DNA from: Prochlorococcaceae cyanobacterium jk18x1bzbins.87
Lineage (GTDB): Bacteria; Cyanobacteriota; Cyanobacteriia; PCC-6307; Cyanobiaceae
Reading direction: 5' to 3'
Assembly: GCA_022826535.1 (NCBI GenBank)
Contig: JAJDUS010000057.1
Span: forward strand, 1 to 33,443
DNA length: 33,443 nt
The notes below the pieces were generated by a model. It worked only from the letters and a program-made list of their open reading frames with translations, did not search any database and was not told where the DNA came from. This document shows positions 189-33,443 of this stretch, piece after piece. Each line of letters opens with the position of its first letter. Position 1 is the first letter of the stretch. The position numbers and the translations under genes are program-made.

Positions 189-923
189 TTAGGGGCTGAT
201 TCTCGGCTTCGGCACTTTGGGATGTAAGTCCGAAACACTGGAAGCCCCTTCTAGTTGAGACCCGACTTTTTGATCAACCTTGGGGAGAAAGGGAAGTGGA
301 AGTTTTCTGTAAACCCACGAGTTTTCCAGTGTTTTCCTGGGCCGGCCGTCTGAAATCACGTAGCCAAGCATAAAAGATAGACCACTAGCCAAAGCCAATT
401 TCAAAATACAGTATCTAGTTTTGTGTATAACTTTCTTAAAGCTCTTAATTGGCTGAGGCTTATGATCGAAAAAGTAATAAAACAAATTAACTTTATCTGG
501 TAATTTGCTGATATGAAAACATTCAGATTCATTCAGACTCCCGTTTTTCACATTATATAATTTGAACATATGAAAATTATTAACAAGAACATATTTTGGA
601 TGATTTTTCTCTTTAAGCATATCAAAATATTCTTTTACTTGCTGATCAAATGCCCTATTCAAATTTTCCCCAGAGCTTTTATTTTCAATCAGAATAACAC
701 CAGGCCAAAGAACATCAATTCGCTTCTTGTTCTCATTCTTGGAAAGATCATACTCAAAATGGATATTGCTAGCAAAACGATCAATATTAAAAATTCCAAA
801 AAACTCATTGATAAAAGTTTGAGACTCCCTGGACTCTCTTATATTATACTTTCTTGTCCATCTTTTTACAAATTCCTTGGCTTTTTTGTGAATCCTCTCC
901 CTGTGCTCAGAGCTTAATTCCAT
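189..923 (-). pseudogene. Truncated MmeI-like (type IIL) restriction enzyme, N-terminal nuclease domain only
   Basis: This 244-codon frame starts with ATG and resembles the N-terminal endonuclease domain of MmeI-like type IIL restriction-modification proteins. The PD-(D/E)xK signature is visible as D70 (in IDVLWPG), E80 and K82 (in IENKSS). From memory this is the same D-X9-ExK spacing as MmeI itself. The flanking RESQTFINEFF and DQQVKEYF segments also fit that domain. Complete family members are roughly 900 residues with methyltransferase and target-recognition domains; all of that is missing here. Similarity fades after about residue 160. A hydrophobic stretch (about 172-190) follows, and the last 55 or so codons run into a more GC-rich repeat (228-339), so the C-terminus is probably not native. 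The body is much more AT-rich than pgl, whose stop lies only 18 bp upstream, which suggests horizontal acquisition. It is probably an inactive remnant; a domesticated nuclease is less likely. Confidence 0.6.
228..339 (-). repeat. Diverged copy of miniature element MITE-A
   Basis: The ends carry inverted AAACACTGGAA motifs (near 233 and, inverted, near 325-335). Read on the minus strand, the interior aligns with the MITE-A copies at 29074, 29880 and 32641; shared blocks include GAGTTTTCCAG, TTCTGT and CCTTG. The length (about 112 bp) is close to the 117 bp of the clear copies. The outer bases have decayed, so the exact boundaries are approximate. It supplies the 3' end of the MmeI-like reading frame. 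Confidence 0.5.
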
Positions 924-28991: not shown

Positions 28992-29073
28992 TAGGGAAGA
29001 GCAGATTGCACGCATCCGCTCTTTACTTTCCTTCTTCCTCAAGGAACAGGGTGTGAAGAGAATGGATGACCGC
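28992..29073 (+). pseudogene. Fragment of IS427-like transposase N-terminus (copy 5)
   Basis: Translates as EEQIARIRSLL followed by KEQGVKRMDDRK, matching the start of the transposase in the other copies (AEQVDRIRPL, VDDRKVLSG). It stops abruptly where MITE-A copy 1 begins at 29074; the rest of the element is absent. It lies about 100 bp downstream of 5S. Confidence 0.65.
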
Positions 29074-29190
29074 AAGAGACACCCTGAAAAACTTCAAAGC
29101 GTTTTCACAGAAGACTCTCGCTCCTCTCTTACAGCAAGGCTTTTCAAAAGCCAGCACTCAGCCAGAAAGAGGTTTCCTAGTGTTTCCCTA
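29074..29190 (+). repeat. Miniature inverted-repeat element MITE-A, copy 1
   Basis: 117 bp with imperfect terminal inverted repeats (consensus ends TAGGGACACCCTGGAAAAC and TAGGGAAACACTGGGAAAC) and an internal palindrome GGCTTTTCAAAAGCC at 29138-29152. It carries no reading frame of its own. On the left it abuts an IS427-like fragment, on the right the C-terminal half of an IS5-group transposase. The left-hand T of the expected TA is mutated to A. Confidence 0.85.
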
Positions 29191-29690
29191 ACGCCAGTGA
29201 TGTAATCATGGCAGCAGAGCCATTGCATGGTCAAGAAAAGGTGGTCTATGGGGATGCAGGCGGCCAAGGCGTTGAGGGCACCATGAAAAATTGGGCAGCT
29301 TCCCTCTGCGGGATGTCGTCTCATCATGGGAAAGTCAGTCCTGGAGAGAGATTACCTAGACCAGCAGACTTTTCCATGCGAGGAGAGATGCAATTTTCAT
29401 GGTGCCCTTGGGAAGCGAGAAGAGATGACAGGACGAGAAGTGGACTGTCCCATCGCTATGGTAGCAGGAGAGCGCCGCCGCTGACATGACGGATGGAGAA
29501 GGGACAGTGCAGCAGTGAGTGGAGCGGGCCAAGATTCATGTCAGAGCCAAGGTGGAGCATTCCTCCTTCCGGTGCTCAAGCAACAGTTTGGGTTCTGGAA
29601 AATCAGGCGACGCGGCCTGGCCAAAAAACATAGTAAGGTGATGGTGTTAGCTGCCCTGACCAACTGATTCTTGGGGAGGAAAAAGTTATC
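29191..29690 (+). pseudogene. IS5-group transposase, C-terminal half (element ISb copy 1)
   Basis: Begins in frame as NASDVIMAAEPLHGQEK, then VVYGDAGGQGVE with the second catalytic aspartate. It is interrupted by MITE-C (29276-29407) and resumes as KREEMTGREVDCPIAM. After a stop and a frameshift it continues as KIHVRAKVEH and LPVLKQQFGFWKIRRRG, the conserved end with the catalytic Glu. The matching N-terminal half is on the opposite strand at 29998-30678. It is inactive. The following 189 bp (29691-29879) show nothing I recognise. Confidence 0.75.
29276..29407 (+). repeat. Miniature inverted-repeat element MITE-C
   Basis: 132 bp with 17-18-bp terminal inverted repeats (GGGCACCATGAAAAATTG at the left; GGGCACCATGAAAATTG read inward from the right). 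It sits inside the IS5-group C-terminal half. Flanks TTGA (29272-29275) and TTGG (29408-29411) look like a slightly mutated 4-bp target duplication. Deleting the element and one flank restores GVEKREEM exactly. Confidence 0.8.
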
Positions 29691-29879
29691 AGTTAGCCAT
29701 GATAATACAGGAGCGGTGTATCAACCCACTGTGCTCTGCGACTGCCATCAACCCCAATAAGGGCCATCCCAAGGGTAACATACAGTGGCTTGGCACTCAA
29801 AACGCTCCTTGAGAGAGAAAAGAAAGAGAGCAGGTCCACTGGCTATCCTCCTGGTTGATACGGTTCTTCAACGATTCCT

Positions 29880-29997
29880 TAGAGAAACACTAGGAAACCC
29901 CTTTGCTGGCAAAGTCCTGGCTTTTGAAAAGCCTTGTTGTAAGAGAGGAGTGAGAGTCTTCTGTGAAAGCGCTTTGGAGTTTTCCAGGGTGTCCTTA
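29880..29997 (-). repeat. Miniature inverted-repeat element MITE-A, copy 2 (inverted)
   Basis: 118 bp, same family as 29074-29190 but in the opposite orientation, with internal palindrome GGCTTTTGAAAAGCC. On the minus strand it follows directly after the IS5-group transposase N-terminal half at HSVATRTA. Its ends carry TA as in the other copies. Confidence 0.87.
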
Positions 29998-30678
29998 GCC
30001 GTCCTGGTAGCCACAGAGTGGATCAAGCCGGAATCCTTATCCACCCCAAGTGTACCTTCGTGCCAAAGAACCACTGTTTCCCTTCACAGCTTTGGTGCAT
30101 CTGTGGATCCCGTTCCCTCTTCTTGTTCTTTGTGGAGGCGGGTGCATGGATGATGGTGGCATCCACCATCGTCCCCTCCCGCAGCATCAGGTCCTTCTCT
30201 CTCAAGTACTGCTCCACTGCCTTGAAAATCTCCTCGGCCAATTAATGCTGTTCCACACCATGGGGGAACGCCAAGATGGTGGTGGCATCCGGGATGTTAT
30301 CCTTGGCAAGATCAATGCTGGCAAAGCGGTGAATGGTGCTGCTATCAATCAGGGCATCTTCCATGGCTTCGTCCCTCAGGGACCACCAGTTCTGCATCAG
30401 GTGAATCCGCACCATGGTCCTCCGATCATAGGGCGCGGCCTTCCTCCTTAAGGATAGACAGGCTCCAGCAACCCCAGTTCTGGATAAGGGTCCATCAGGG
30501 AAGGGCAGCACCGCCTCCATCTCACAGAGGAACTTCTCCTTGCTGGTCTGCTTCCTCACTCAGCCACGCTCCCAGTCGCTGAAGCCCAACTGCTGCTCCC
30601 TCACTCCCACCCTTTCCATCCCAATTTACACCCAGTCTAATCCCCTCAGATTGCTGGGGGGGTTCCAGATGTTCCCTA
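29998..30678 (-). pseudogene. IS5-group transposase, N-terminal half with left terminal repeat (element ISb copy 1)
   Basis: The left end TAGGGAACATCTGGAACC is at 30661-30678. The frame then gives QTSKEKFLCEMEAVLPF, RTMVRIHLMQNWWSLRDEAM, IHRFASIDLAKDNIPDATT and, after an in-frame TAA at 30242, EGTMVDATIIHAPASTKN with the first catalytic aspartate, then ERDPQMHQSCEGKQWFFGTK. A frameshift leads to GVDKDSGLIHSVATRTA, where MITE-A copy 2 interrupts. It is inactive because of two nonsense codons and one frameshift. Confidence 0.8.
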
Positions 30679-31247
30679 GGGTCAGGACCCATAATGTGAT
30701 TTGATCTGATCTTTTCTGAGTTGTCAGCATCCGATGCCGCAGAGCCAGAGGTCCTGATGATTGACACCACTGATCTCAAAGCCCATCCCCCCACGGCGTC
30801 CAGCCTCAACGAGGGGGTGCCCCCCGCCTGATTGGTGGCACTACTAAAGGGGATATGACCAGCAAGCTCCATGGGGTCTGTGACAGCAAAGATGGTCCCC
30901 ACGGCTCCACCTGAGTGAGGGGCAATGCAGTGACTTCACTGGTGCTGATGGGGTGCTCAAGGACTGCCGCCTGCGGCAACGGTGATTGGGGATCAAAGGT
31001 ATGACAGCAACAAAATCCGTAGGATGCTGGTCCAGCAGGGCCTTGCATCGCACCCCGTCGCTGCCGCAAGAAACCAGTCCATTACAGCAAGAGACTGGAT
31101 CGCAGGCGTCACAAAGTCGAGAATCGCTTTTCCCGGCTGAAGGACTGGCGGCGTGTTGCAACCCGCTACGACGGCTGCGCCCACGTCTTCCATTCTGCCA
31201 TCCTCCTGGGCGCTACCGTCCTCTCTGGATGATGAGTCCTGACCCCA
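30677..31247 (+). mobile_element. IS5-family (IS427-like) element, copy 3, 5'-deleted
   Basis: Both ends are recognisable: TAGGGTCAGGACCCATAATGTGA at the left, of which the last bases run straight into the DLIF part, and GAGTCCTGACCCCA at the right (last T mutated to C). Roughly 310 bp encoding the transposase N-terminus are missing. The remaining plus-strand reading includes VVSASDAAEPEVLMID, GGTTKGDMTSKLHGVCDSK, GYDSNKIRRML and KDWRRVATRYDGCAHVF, with several frame breaks. The left end abuts the left end of the ISb copy 1 element. The 173 bp after it (31248-31420) hold nothing I can name. Confidence 0.82.
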
Positions 31248-31420
31248 GGTCCACAATCCCGGCGTGAGCACCTGGGCAATGGTTACGACCCAATGGATCA
31301 TGGTGGGGAAGCTGTTTCAGATGTCAAAGGGTGGCTTCAGAGCACCAGCGGCCTACACTAGAGAGGATTGGATAAAATAAAGGTGTCTGCATTGCTGATT
31401 AGAACTGATGGGCTTTGATT

Positions 31421-32212
31421 CAGGGTCAGGACCCATAATGTGAAGAGAGGGCGCCCCAAGAAAGTATCAGGAGGATGGGTGATGGCCCAGTTGTTTTGGG
31501 TCAGCGCGGAGCAGGTTGATCGCATCCGCCCCTTGTTTCCCAAGGAACGGGGTGTGAGTGGGTGTATGACAGGAAGGTGTTGAGCGACATCATCCATGTC
31601 ATTCAGAGGGGTCTGCGCTAGGTGGGTGCCCCTGCTGCCTATGGTCCCCACAAAACCCTCTACAACCGTTGCCGCCGCTGGTGAGACAAGGGTGTTTTTG
31701 ATCTGATCTTTTCCGAGTTGTCAGCATCAGATACCCCAGAGCCAGAGGTGCTGATGCTTGACGCCACTGACATCAAAGCCCATCGCACGGCGTGCAGCCT
31801 CAACAAAGGGGGGGTGGCCCCCGCCTGATTGGTGGCACCAAGGGGGGCATGACCAGCAAGCTCCATGGGGTCTGGTGGTCCCCTGCGACTCCACCTGAGT
31901 GAGGGGCAATGCAGTGACTTCACCGGTGCTTGGTGTGGTGCCCAAGGACCTGCTGCCTGCGGCAACGGTGATCAGGGATCAAGGGTAGGACAGGGACAAA
32001 ATCCGTAAGATGCTGTCCCAGCAGGGCATCACGCCTTGCATTCCGCCCCGTCGCTGCCGCAAGAAGCCAGTCCATTACAGCAAGAGGCTGGATCGCAAGG
32101 GTCACAAAATCGAGACACTCTTTTCCTGACTGCAGACTGGCGGTGTGTTGCAACCCGCTACGGCGGCTGCCTGGCCGCCATTATCCTCTTCTGGTGATAA
32201 GGCCTGACCCTA
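31421..32212 (+). mobile_element. IS5-family (IS427-like) element, copy 4, degraded
   Basis: Starts with CAGGGTCAGGACCCATAATG (the first T mutated to C) and ends CCTGACCCTA at 32212, 792 bp against 880 for the full copy. The plus strand encodes WVSAEQVDRIRPLFPKERG, PHKTLYNRCRRW, then the same in-frame TGA (31682-31684) as copy 2, then DKGVFDLIFSELSASDTPEP, VLMLDATDIKAHRTACSLNK. Frames break afterwards, and about 40 bp are lost near 31875. It is inactive. Confidence 0.85.
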
Positions 32213-32325
32213 GGGAACCTCTGAACAAGCCAGAGTCGTCCGCCATCAGGCTCCTGCTTCCCCTGTCTCTACTGGGCTTCCCAAAACTCTCAGGGTCTCA
32301 AGGGGACTTGTTCAGAAGTTCCCTA
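32211..32325 (+). repeat. Miniature inverted-repeat element MITE-B
   Basis: 115 bp with 19-bp terminal inverted repeats, TAGGGAACCTCTGAACAAG on the left and TAGGGAACTTCTGAACAAG read inward from the right (18 of 19 identical), including flanking TA. The left TA is shared with the end of the IS427-like copy 4, the right TA with the start of the IS5-group element. There is no coding capacity. The ends resemble those of the IS5-group element ISb. Confidence 0.8.
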
Positions 32326-33443
32326 GGCATCTCTGAACAAGTCTGCCAAGTGGGAGAGGGAGTAGGTTAAGGTGGAAGCGCCTGATATGAGTTGGAGGAG
32401 TGGGTGTCATGAAGAGTATGGAGAAGAGCTTTACCGACCTTGGGTTTCATAGAAAGAAACGGAAGACGAGGAGGGAGCTGCTTCTGGATTGGATGGAGGA
32501 GTTGCTTCCGTAGAGTGGCCTGTTGGAGCAGATCAAAGCAGTACTATCCCAAGCAGGCAAGGGGAGAGTTCCCTGTGATCCGGCCATGGAAGATATGCTC
32601 CATGATGTGGAGAGTGGGGGCCGCTTTACCGGTATCCGTCTAGGGACACCCTGGAAAACTTCAAAGCGCTTTCACAGAAGACTCTCACTCCTCTCTTACA
32701 GCAAGGCTCTTGAAAGGCCAGGACTGAGCCAGACAGGGGTTTCCCAGTGTTTCCCTAGGCAAGGAGCCAGAAAGGAGAGCCATCCTCAAGTTCCGCCATC
32801 TGCTGGAACGTCATGGATTAGGCAAGAAGCTGTTTGGGAGCATCAAGGAGCATCTGGCAGTTGAAGATCTGATGCTGAAGAAAGGGAAGATTCCGGACGC
32901 CAGCATCATTGCAGTGCCAGCATCGACGAAGAACCGCTCCAGGGAACGTGATCCTGAGATGCAGCAGAGCAGGAAGGGGAACCAGTGGCAACTTCGGCAT
33001 GAAGCTGCACAGCGGGGTGGATGCCCAAAGCAGCTTGGTCCATAGCCTACCCATCACCGCCGCCAAGATACATAGCTGACCCCCTTCAGAGAAGCTGCTC
33101 CATGAAGAGGAAACCCGTGTCTGAGAAGATAGAGATTATGGGGAGATTGAGAAGGGCCAAGCCCATGAGGATCGCAAGGTGGCATGGCCCATTGCGATGA
33201 GGTTCAGAGCAGAAGAGATTAACCAGAGAGCAACTGGAGCGATTGTTGAAACAGTGCAAGGGCAGTCTGAGGATATAGAACACCTCTTTTTCTTTGTCAA
33301 GAAACCTCAATTCTGGATAAGATCAAGAGGAGGTTGTGATGGTGGGCATGGTGTTGTGGATGCCGATGTTGCCAATGTTGACCTTGGGTTGTGCCAGGGT
33401 GTAAGCCGCCAGGCATGAGAGAATGTGGAGGAGGGGGTTGCTG
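32324..33443 (+). mobile_element. IS5-group element ISb, copy 2, degraded and cut by the window edge
   Basis: The left end TAGGCATCTCTGAACAAG is at 32324-32341. The transposase starts around 32409 with MKSMEKSFTDLGFHRKKRK and RRELLLDWMEELLP. After a stop it continues as QIKAVLSQAGKGR, AMEDMLHDV and GRFTGIRL, where MITE-A copy 3 (32641-32757) interrupts. It resumes as ILKFRHLLERHGLGKKLF, DASIIAVPASTKNRSRERD and, after a frameshift, FGMKLHSGVDAQSSLVHSL. A decayed C-terminus follows (LLHEEETRV, then EHLFFFVKKPQFW). No intact frame exists. The right end is not visible before 33443. Confidence 0.78.
32641..32757 (+). repeat. Miniature inverted-repeat element MITE-A, copy 3
   Basis: 117 bp, the best-preserved copy: TAGGGACACCCTGGAAAAC at the left and GTTTCCCAGTGTTTCCCTA at the right. 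It sits inside the transposase of ISb copy 2. Removing it together with one TA restores the frame GIRL-GKEPERRAILKFRHLL, which directly shows the TA target duplication. Confidence 0.9.

Follow-up and report, generated by a model that had tools for sequence, protein, structure and literature searches.

A cyanobacterial MITE family of about 111 bp and its probable mobilisation in trans by the IS5-group transposases of its own genome

MITEPsy1 of Pseudomonas syringae pv. phaseolicola is described as a miniature inverted-repeat transposable element (MITE) of 100 nt, without a gene and present in six copies. Its imperfect 18-nt ends begin GGAAGGTCTGAAAAAGCC and its 4-nt target duplication is CTAG or YTAA; the proposed parent is ISPsy2, an insertion sequence (IS) of the IS5 family, and some copies are reported within other transposons (PMC3189936). 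MITEs of Porphyromonas gingivalis were matched to ISPg1/3/4/9, also of the IS5 family (PMC4596501), and 147 complete or partial MITEs, some of them interrupting genes, are reported in Anabaena sp. 90 (PMC3542288). Here we analyse a repeat found in a 33,443-nt stretch of DNA (the window) of the Prochlorococcaceae cyanobacterium jk18x1bzbins.87; this stretch makes up one entire contig (C41) of a draft genome of 2.49 Mb in 145 contigs. The repeats are copies of a short, gene-less, multicopy mobile element of the MITE type, and they form a new family within the known class of IS5-linked MITEs. Nezha is reportedly another cyanobacterial MITE.

We propose, with a probability of about 0.9, that this family of about 111 bp is moved in trans by IS5-group transposases encoded in its own genome. 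As far as MITEPsy1 is described in the source cited, the two resemble each other in size, absence of a gene, target rule, proposed IS5 parent and nesting in transposons; they differ in sequence, in the six copies of MITEPsy1 and in that its movement was demonstrated in vivo, whereas the present family is known from sequence alone. It shares with the P. gingivalis MITEs, as reported, ends identical or nearly so to those of a full-length IS5-family IS of the same genome, and the lack of a transposase remnant; the ends themselves are other ones, and the P. gingivalis target duplications are described as possibly not canonical (PMC4596501). Like the MITEs of Anabaena sp. 90 it is multicopy, cyanobacterial and in some cases interrupts genes. 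The Anabaena elements are presented as having no evident likeness to the IS ends of their own genome, in contrast to the present MITE, for which an IS with similar ends exists in the same genome. Searches of an open-licence library turned up no account of this MITE family.

Three copies, the second inverted, had been reported in the window by a first-pass annotation of the sequence, and both alignment and a genome search place them there (Table 1). Copies 1 and 3 share 90% identity over 116 nt. All three copies lie inside decayed transposase genes. The own-genome search gave at least 40 matches (72 first-look candidates, of which 40 were scored and 40/40 matched), with a best E-value of 4.0e-40 beyond the query itself; with such numbers and such an E-value, the similarity of the three copies is not due to chance. 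Two end patterns were found at 50 and 61 places in the genome, counts which overlap and include the ends of full-length IS besides MITE ends, and a reversed-pattern control gave 0. A profile search of the window and of the fetched loci yielded 49 matches, with both ends present in 44. Two divergent ones were dropped (window 332, L028 1242), leaving a set of 42 copies in which two flank-sharing pairs were kept. The consensus is 111-112 bp long, with a mean pairwise identity of 0.883 and no transposase gene. Matches were obtained in 7 of 40 genomes, namely the own genome and six of nine congeners (G002, G003, G004, G005, G008, G009); the 30 more distant genomes gave no match at the threshold used. 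The window also holds a fourth, decayed relative, which by eye is as close to the congeners' copies as to the local ones.

The first-pass annotation had taken the target duplication to be TA. Our comparison of flanks favours instead a duplication of 4 bp, YTAR-like. The element was read as GG...CC and the 4-mers on both sides were compared in the 42 copies, with 10000 shuffles as control. Identical 4-mers were found in 14/42 copies (shuffle mean 3.0; 0/10000 shuffles reach 14). The outer base 1 agrees in 31/42 (shuffle mean 18.8; no shuffle reaches 31) and base 4 in 25/42 (shuffle mean 16.5, p 0.0027), and because the outer bases vary in pairs a 4-bp duplication is favoured over a 2-bp TA. Restoration of the reading frame is blind to this difference, since equal numbers of bases are lost whether one takes out 'GGG...CCC' with TA or 'GG...CC' with YTAR: a TA-only duplication, which we rejected, accounts for the restored frames just as well but leaves the pairing of the outer bases unexplained. 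YTAR duplication is described for IS5 insertions (PMC10359306). Of the 14 exact repeats, four depart from YTAR (CTTG, CTAT, CTCA and CAAA), and all of these except CTAT also lack the TA core. A TA core together with a restored frame is thus insufficient to infer TA duplication.

The same data bear on the mobilising enzyme, which had been left unknown, with an IS630/Tc1-type transposase duplicating TA as one candidate. Such an enzyme would suit the TA core seen in most targets (on the left side, T at position 2 in 35/42 and A at position 3 in 32/42). However, the duplication takes in the outer bases as well, three repeats have no TA core, and the matching ends found in this genome are those of IS5-group elements, IS630 elements not having been searched for. 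We regard this candidate as extremely improbable.

Unoccupied counterparts of the insertion sites were also found. Joined flanks, with the element taken out and one 4-mer kept, were aligned to loci of the own genome and of congeners. In 8 of 45 joins a match ran across the junction, in six of them without a gap at the junction; the other 37 had no match to test. Copy 3, without the element and with one CTAG, gives ungapped alignments of 213-215 nt with the transposase loci L117, L099 and L116 (the best 3 of 16 matches), with matches in the own genome and in two congeners; the restored frame claimed for this copy therefore holds when a single target copy is retained. The claim that copies 1 and 2 split one gene was likewise upheld: with the left flank of copy 2 placed next to copy 1's right flank, the alignment is ungapped over 233 nt, at 88% identity to L097 of the own genome. 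These two joins and that of L012 (4-mers CTAA/CTGA, which differ; best junction-spanning matches in congeners) are those with an entirely ungapped best match. For L004 (CTTG), the second match, an own-genome relative in L018, is ungapped over 167 nt. The L008 and L030 joins (own genome) have no junction gap and 1-3 gaps elsewhere, the 4-mers of L008 (TAAA/TCAA) not being identical, and for L020 and L025 the alignment near the junction is not clean. Insertions in congeners, L068/L069 (common to G003 and G004) and L080 (G004), were compared with five empty places, three of them in G009 and the others in G005 and elsewhere in G004. At four of the five no gap lies close to the junction, and at the fifth there is a 1-bp indel; the left arms of the alignments are short, at about 20 to 40 nt. 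Empty sites thus fit junctions with a single target copy (6/45 joins, 4/5 congener places).

When all left flanks were joined to all right flanks, 24 pairs gave a junction match and four best matches were ungapped. Two of these are self pairs (copy 3 and L012) and one is the window pair; the fourth combines L012 with L007, two loci with similar right flanks. All remaining cross pairs were gapped. By eye, L012 and the L007 right flank are at the same site, in the same kind of transposase gene as copy 3 and in opposite orientation, which suggests either a target used more than once or a MITE that has been inverted.

We then looked for IS with the same ends. Many end-pattern matches lie about 140 nt from contig ends, as would be expected of a near-identical multicopy IS at which short-read assembly breaks. 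One such element, IS-A, has a left end present in 13 copies with at least 136/141 bases (96-100% identity), 11 of the 13 at contig ends. Inward of this end the start of a protein is seen by eye, the copy of contig C133 reading MSSKEGQLDFGDYERSF. C133 carries the longest IS-A piece, with an open frame of 234 codons followed by a stop, where an intact IS-A transposase would have about 330. Its 3' end overlaps a right-end piece of C36 by 25 exact nt, so that the two pieces, which come from different copies, together span about 1229 bp. The 234-aa piece scores 249 bits against the IS5 transposase model NF033581 (cut-off 140) and carries Pfam domains DUF772 and DDE_Tnp_1. Compared with the left end of IS-A, the MITE is the same at 17/19 bases of its left end and at 16/17 of its right end. 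In a second type, IS-B, the left end of L111 matches the left ends of one MITE class (AAG, see below) at 23/23 and 26/30. Chance likeness was ruled out by the background of the window, where 9 of 66,852 17-mers reach at least 13 against either MITE end. The IS427-like and 'ISb' elements had been judged to fit poorly, and we agree: with 7/17 and 11/17 bases against the better MITE end, they were rejected as parents. The full-length element with the same ends that had been called for was found in part, IS5-group left ends matching well and right ends less so (11-14/17). The transposase is likely of the IS5 group, judging from these ends, with both IS-A and IS-B as candidate sources.

On the evidence of the copies, their ends, the 4-bp duplications, the unoccupied sites and the same-genome IS with matching ends, the following course may be proposed. 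An IS5-group transposase would recognise the MITE ends (left GGAAACCCTGGAAAAC-like, right GGAAACACTGGGAAAC-like) and join the element to a YTAR-like target, which would be duplicated, 4 bp on each side. The element would have ends of the IS5-group type and an interior that was captured or has diverged beyond recognition, being unrelated to the two IS compared. Inserted copies would then serve as homology for recombination.

Several observations weigh against the proposed mobilisation by IS5-group enzymes. An exact 4-bp repeat is absent in 28/42 copies, and the left 4-mer of copy 1 is CAAG; decay or recombination may explain missing repeats, recombination being shown for the window pair only. 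Left ends differ among copies at positions 4, 6 and 7. The right end of IS-A matches the MITE right end at only 14/17 and those of IS-B at 11 to 14 of 17, while the IS that copies 1 and 2 split, of the IS-B kind, has ends matching at only 11/17. L111 is decayed, with stops in its transposase piece, and no intact IS-A transposase gene was found, C133 having its stop after codon 234 and 11/13 left-end copies ending with their contigs. Finally, beyond the ends only pieces of 8-14 nt match between the MITE interior and IS-A or IS-B (L097); as the interior matches neither IS, descent by simple internal deletion lacks support.

Pieces of IS5-group transposase gave 101 matches in the own genome against 3 to 15 in each of the nine congeners searched; several of the 101 may belong to one element, and many are short or carry stops. 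This suggests expansion and decay of IS5-group elements in the own lineage. A scan of a genome collection with the transposase returned 15 loci, none cyanobacterial by title, the own or near genomes possibly being excluded from it; the top matches reach 55% (Shewanella, Oligella).

Copies 1 and 2 lie in opposite orientation between two oppositely directed halves of one transposase gene. Since the join of copy-2 left and copy-1 right flanks restores an ungapped alignment, an exchange of flanks was inferred. The simplest and most likely course is that, after their insertion, the two inverted copies recombined and the intervening stretch of about 690 bp was thereby flipped. The second side of the exchange is untidier: beside the odd left 4-mer of copy 1, the right CTAA of copy 2 directly adjoins the right end of the interrupted IS. 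Elsewhere, L009 and L010 have a common right flank and L013 and L017 a common left flank, their other flanks being different, which suggests that MITEs were sites of more recombination or that they form the ends of longer repeats. Could the family then have spread mainly by recombination or segmental duplication along with its host IS, and not by transposition? The swapped flanks and the flank-sharing pairs would agree with this, as would the several copies in or beside IS remnants. It is nevertheless very unlikely, as flanks differ for most copies, and insertion events are needed to explain the 4-bp repeats as well as the exact empty sites that exist in paralogues and in congeners.

The interior of the element is better conserved than its ends. 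Copies depart from the majority base by a mean of 0.144 over the left 18 columns and 0.088 over the right 18 columns, against 0.050 in the interior, the reverse of what is expected if recognition by the transposase is the main constraint, in which case ends vary less than the interior. A conserved small RNA or regulatory element that is not mobile would account for this, and for the interior being recognisable in congeners. The 15-bp internal palindrome noted in the first-pass annotation is indeed present; a fold notably better than shuffles was not found for the five strands, from the three window copies, that were folded (z -0.83 to -0.02; 41 to 97 of 200 shuffles are just as stable), and no Rfam search was made. 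The window copies moreover lie within decayed transposase genes, and target duplications exist. A non-mobile element is highly improbable, and a function of the interior alongside mobility is possible.

With one member of each flank-sharing pair dropped, left positions 4-6 are AAG in 18/40 copies, CAC in 14/40 and other in 8/40. We found no link between left-end class and interior similarity (within classes 0.9226, between classes 0.9213, p 0.26), a comparison that is not decisive. Another IS5-family end adjoins 11/42 copies at a threshold of 13/16 bases or more and 14/42 at 11/16 or more. At 11/16, an IS or MITE end adjoins 92 of 628 YTAR sites in own-genome loci compared with the 14/42 MITE copies; these loci were picked because they carry repeats, and the sites of the copies themselves are among those counted. 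Of 170 YTAR sites in the window, 11 adjoin an IS-type end at 13/16, four of them at the MITE copies' own ends. For these chosen loci and the window, enrichment of MITEs beside IS ends is suggestive. It is conceivable, though unlikely, that IS5-family elements and MITEs home onto the target duplications of resident IS5 elements, forming nested arrays, with a constrained interior and ends varying among those of several IS5 transposases; if so, one MITE could exploit more than one IS5 enzyme. Two master copies differing at the end only would account equally well for the unlinked end classes. Close to the end of L054 (G000:C70) a MITE, of which positions 1-63 are kept, is split at CAAG by the right end of an IS-A type element; that IS was inserted later than the MITE.

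Table 1. Mobile-element features of the window
Feature	Coordinates	Strand	Remarks
MITE copy 1	29077-29187	+	4-mers differ: left CAAG (29073-29076), right CTAA (29188-29191)
MITE copy 2	29883-29994	-	CTAA on both sides, element orientation (29995-29998, 29879-29882)
MITE copy 3	32644-32754	+	CTAG on both sides (32640-32643, 32755-32758); unoccupied relatives found
Fourth MITE relative, decayed	~230-336	-	Profile match, E 1.9e-9; missing from the first-pass annotation
IS5-group element (IS-B type), C-terminal part and right end	29192-29878	+	Flipped relative to the other half; ends by eye
Same IS5-group element, N-terminal part and left end	29999-30675	-	Left end by eye
Second IS5-type transposase pseudogene, split by copy 3	32400-33150	+	Matches 32752-32991 and 32975-33148; limits approximate, by eye
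Second miniature element, ~109 bp	32214-32322		GGAACCTCTGAACAAG-type ends, CTAG on both sides (by eye)
IS427-like transposase remnant	30700-31220		
IS427-like transposase remnant	31697-32200		

Among the neighbouring elements (Table 1), the second miniature element likely belongs to the IS5-type element 'ISb', and a relative of it stands in L043 beside the MITE of that locus. The two IS427-like remnants are 86-94% identical in pieces. The five window proteins scanned were geranylgeranyl reductase ChlP, glutamyl-tRNA reductase, class II fructose-bisphosphatase, CcsB and 6-phosphogluconate dehydrogenase, a set that would suit a small cyanobacterium like Synechococcus.

An orphan repeat family is thereby assigned to a likely transposase group and to a target rule. 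Mutual nesting of MITEs and IS is a feature of this genome, and a local inversion in the window was probably caused by them.

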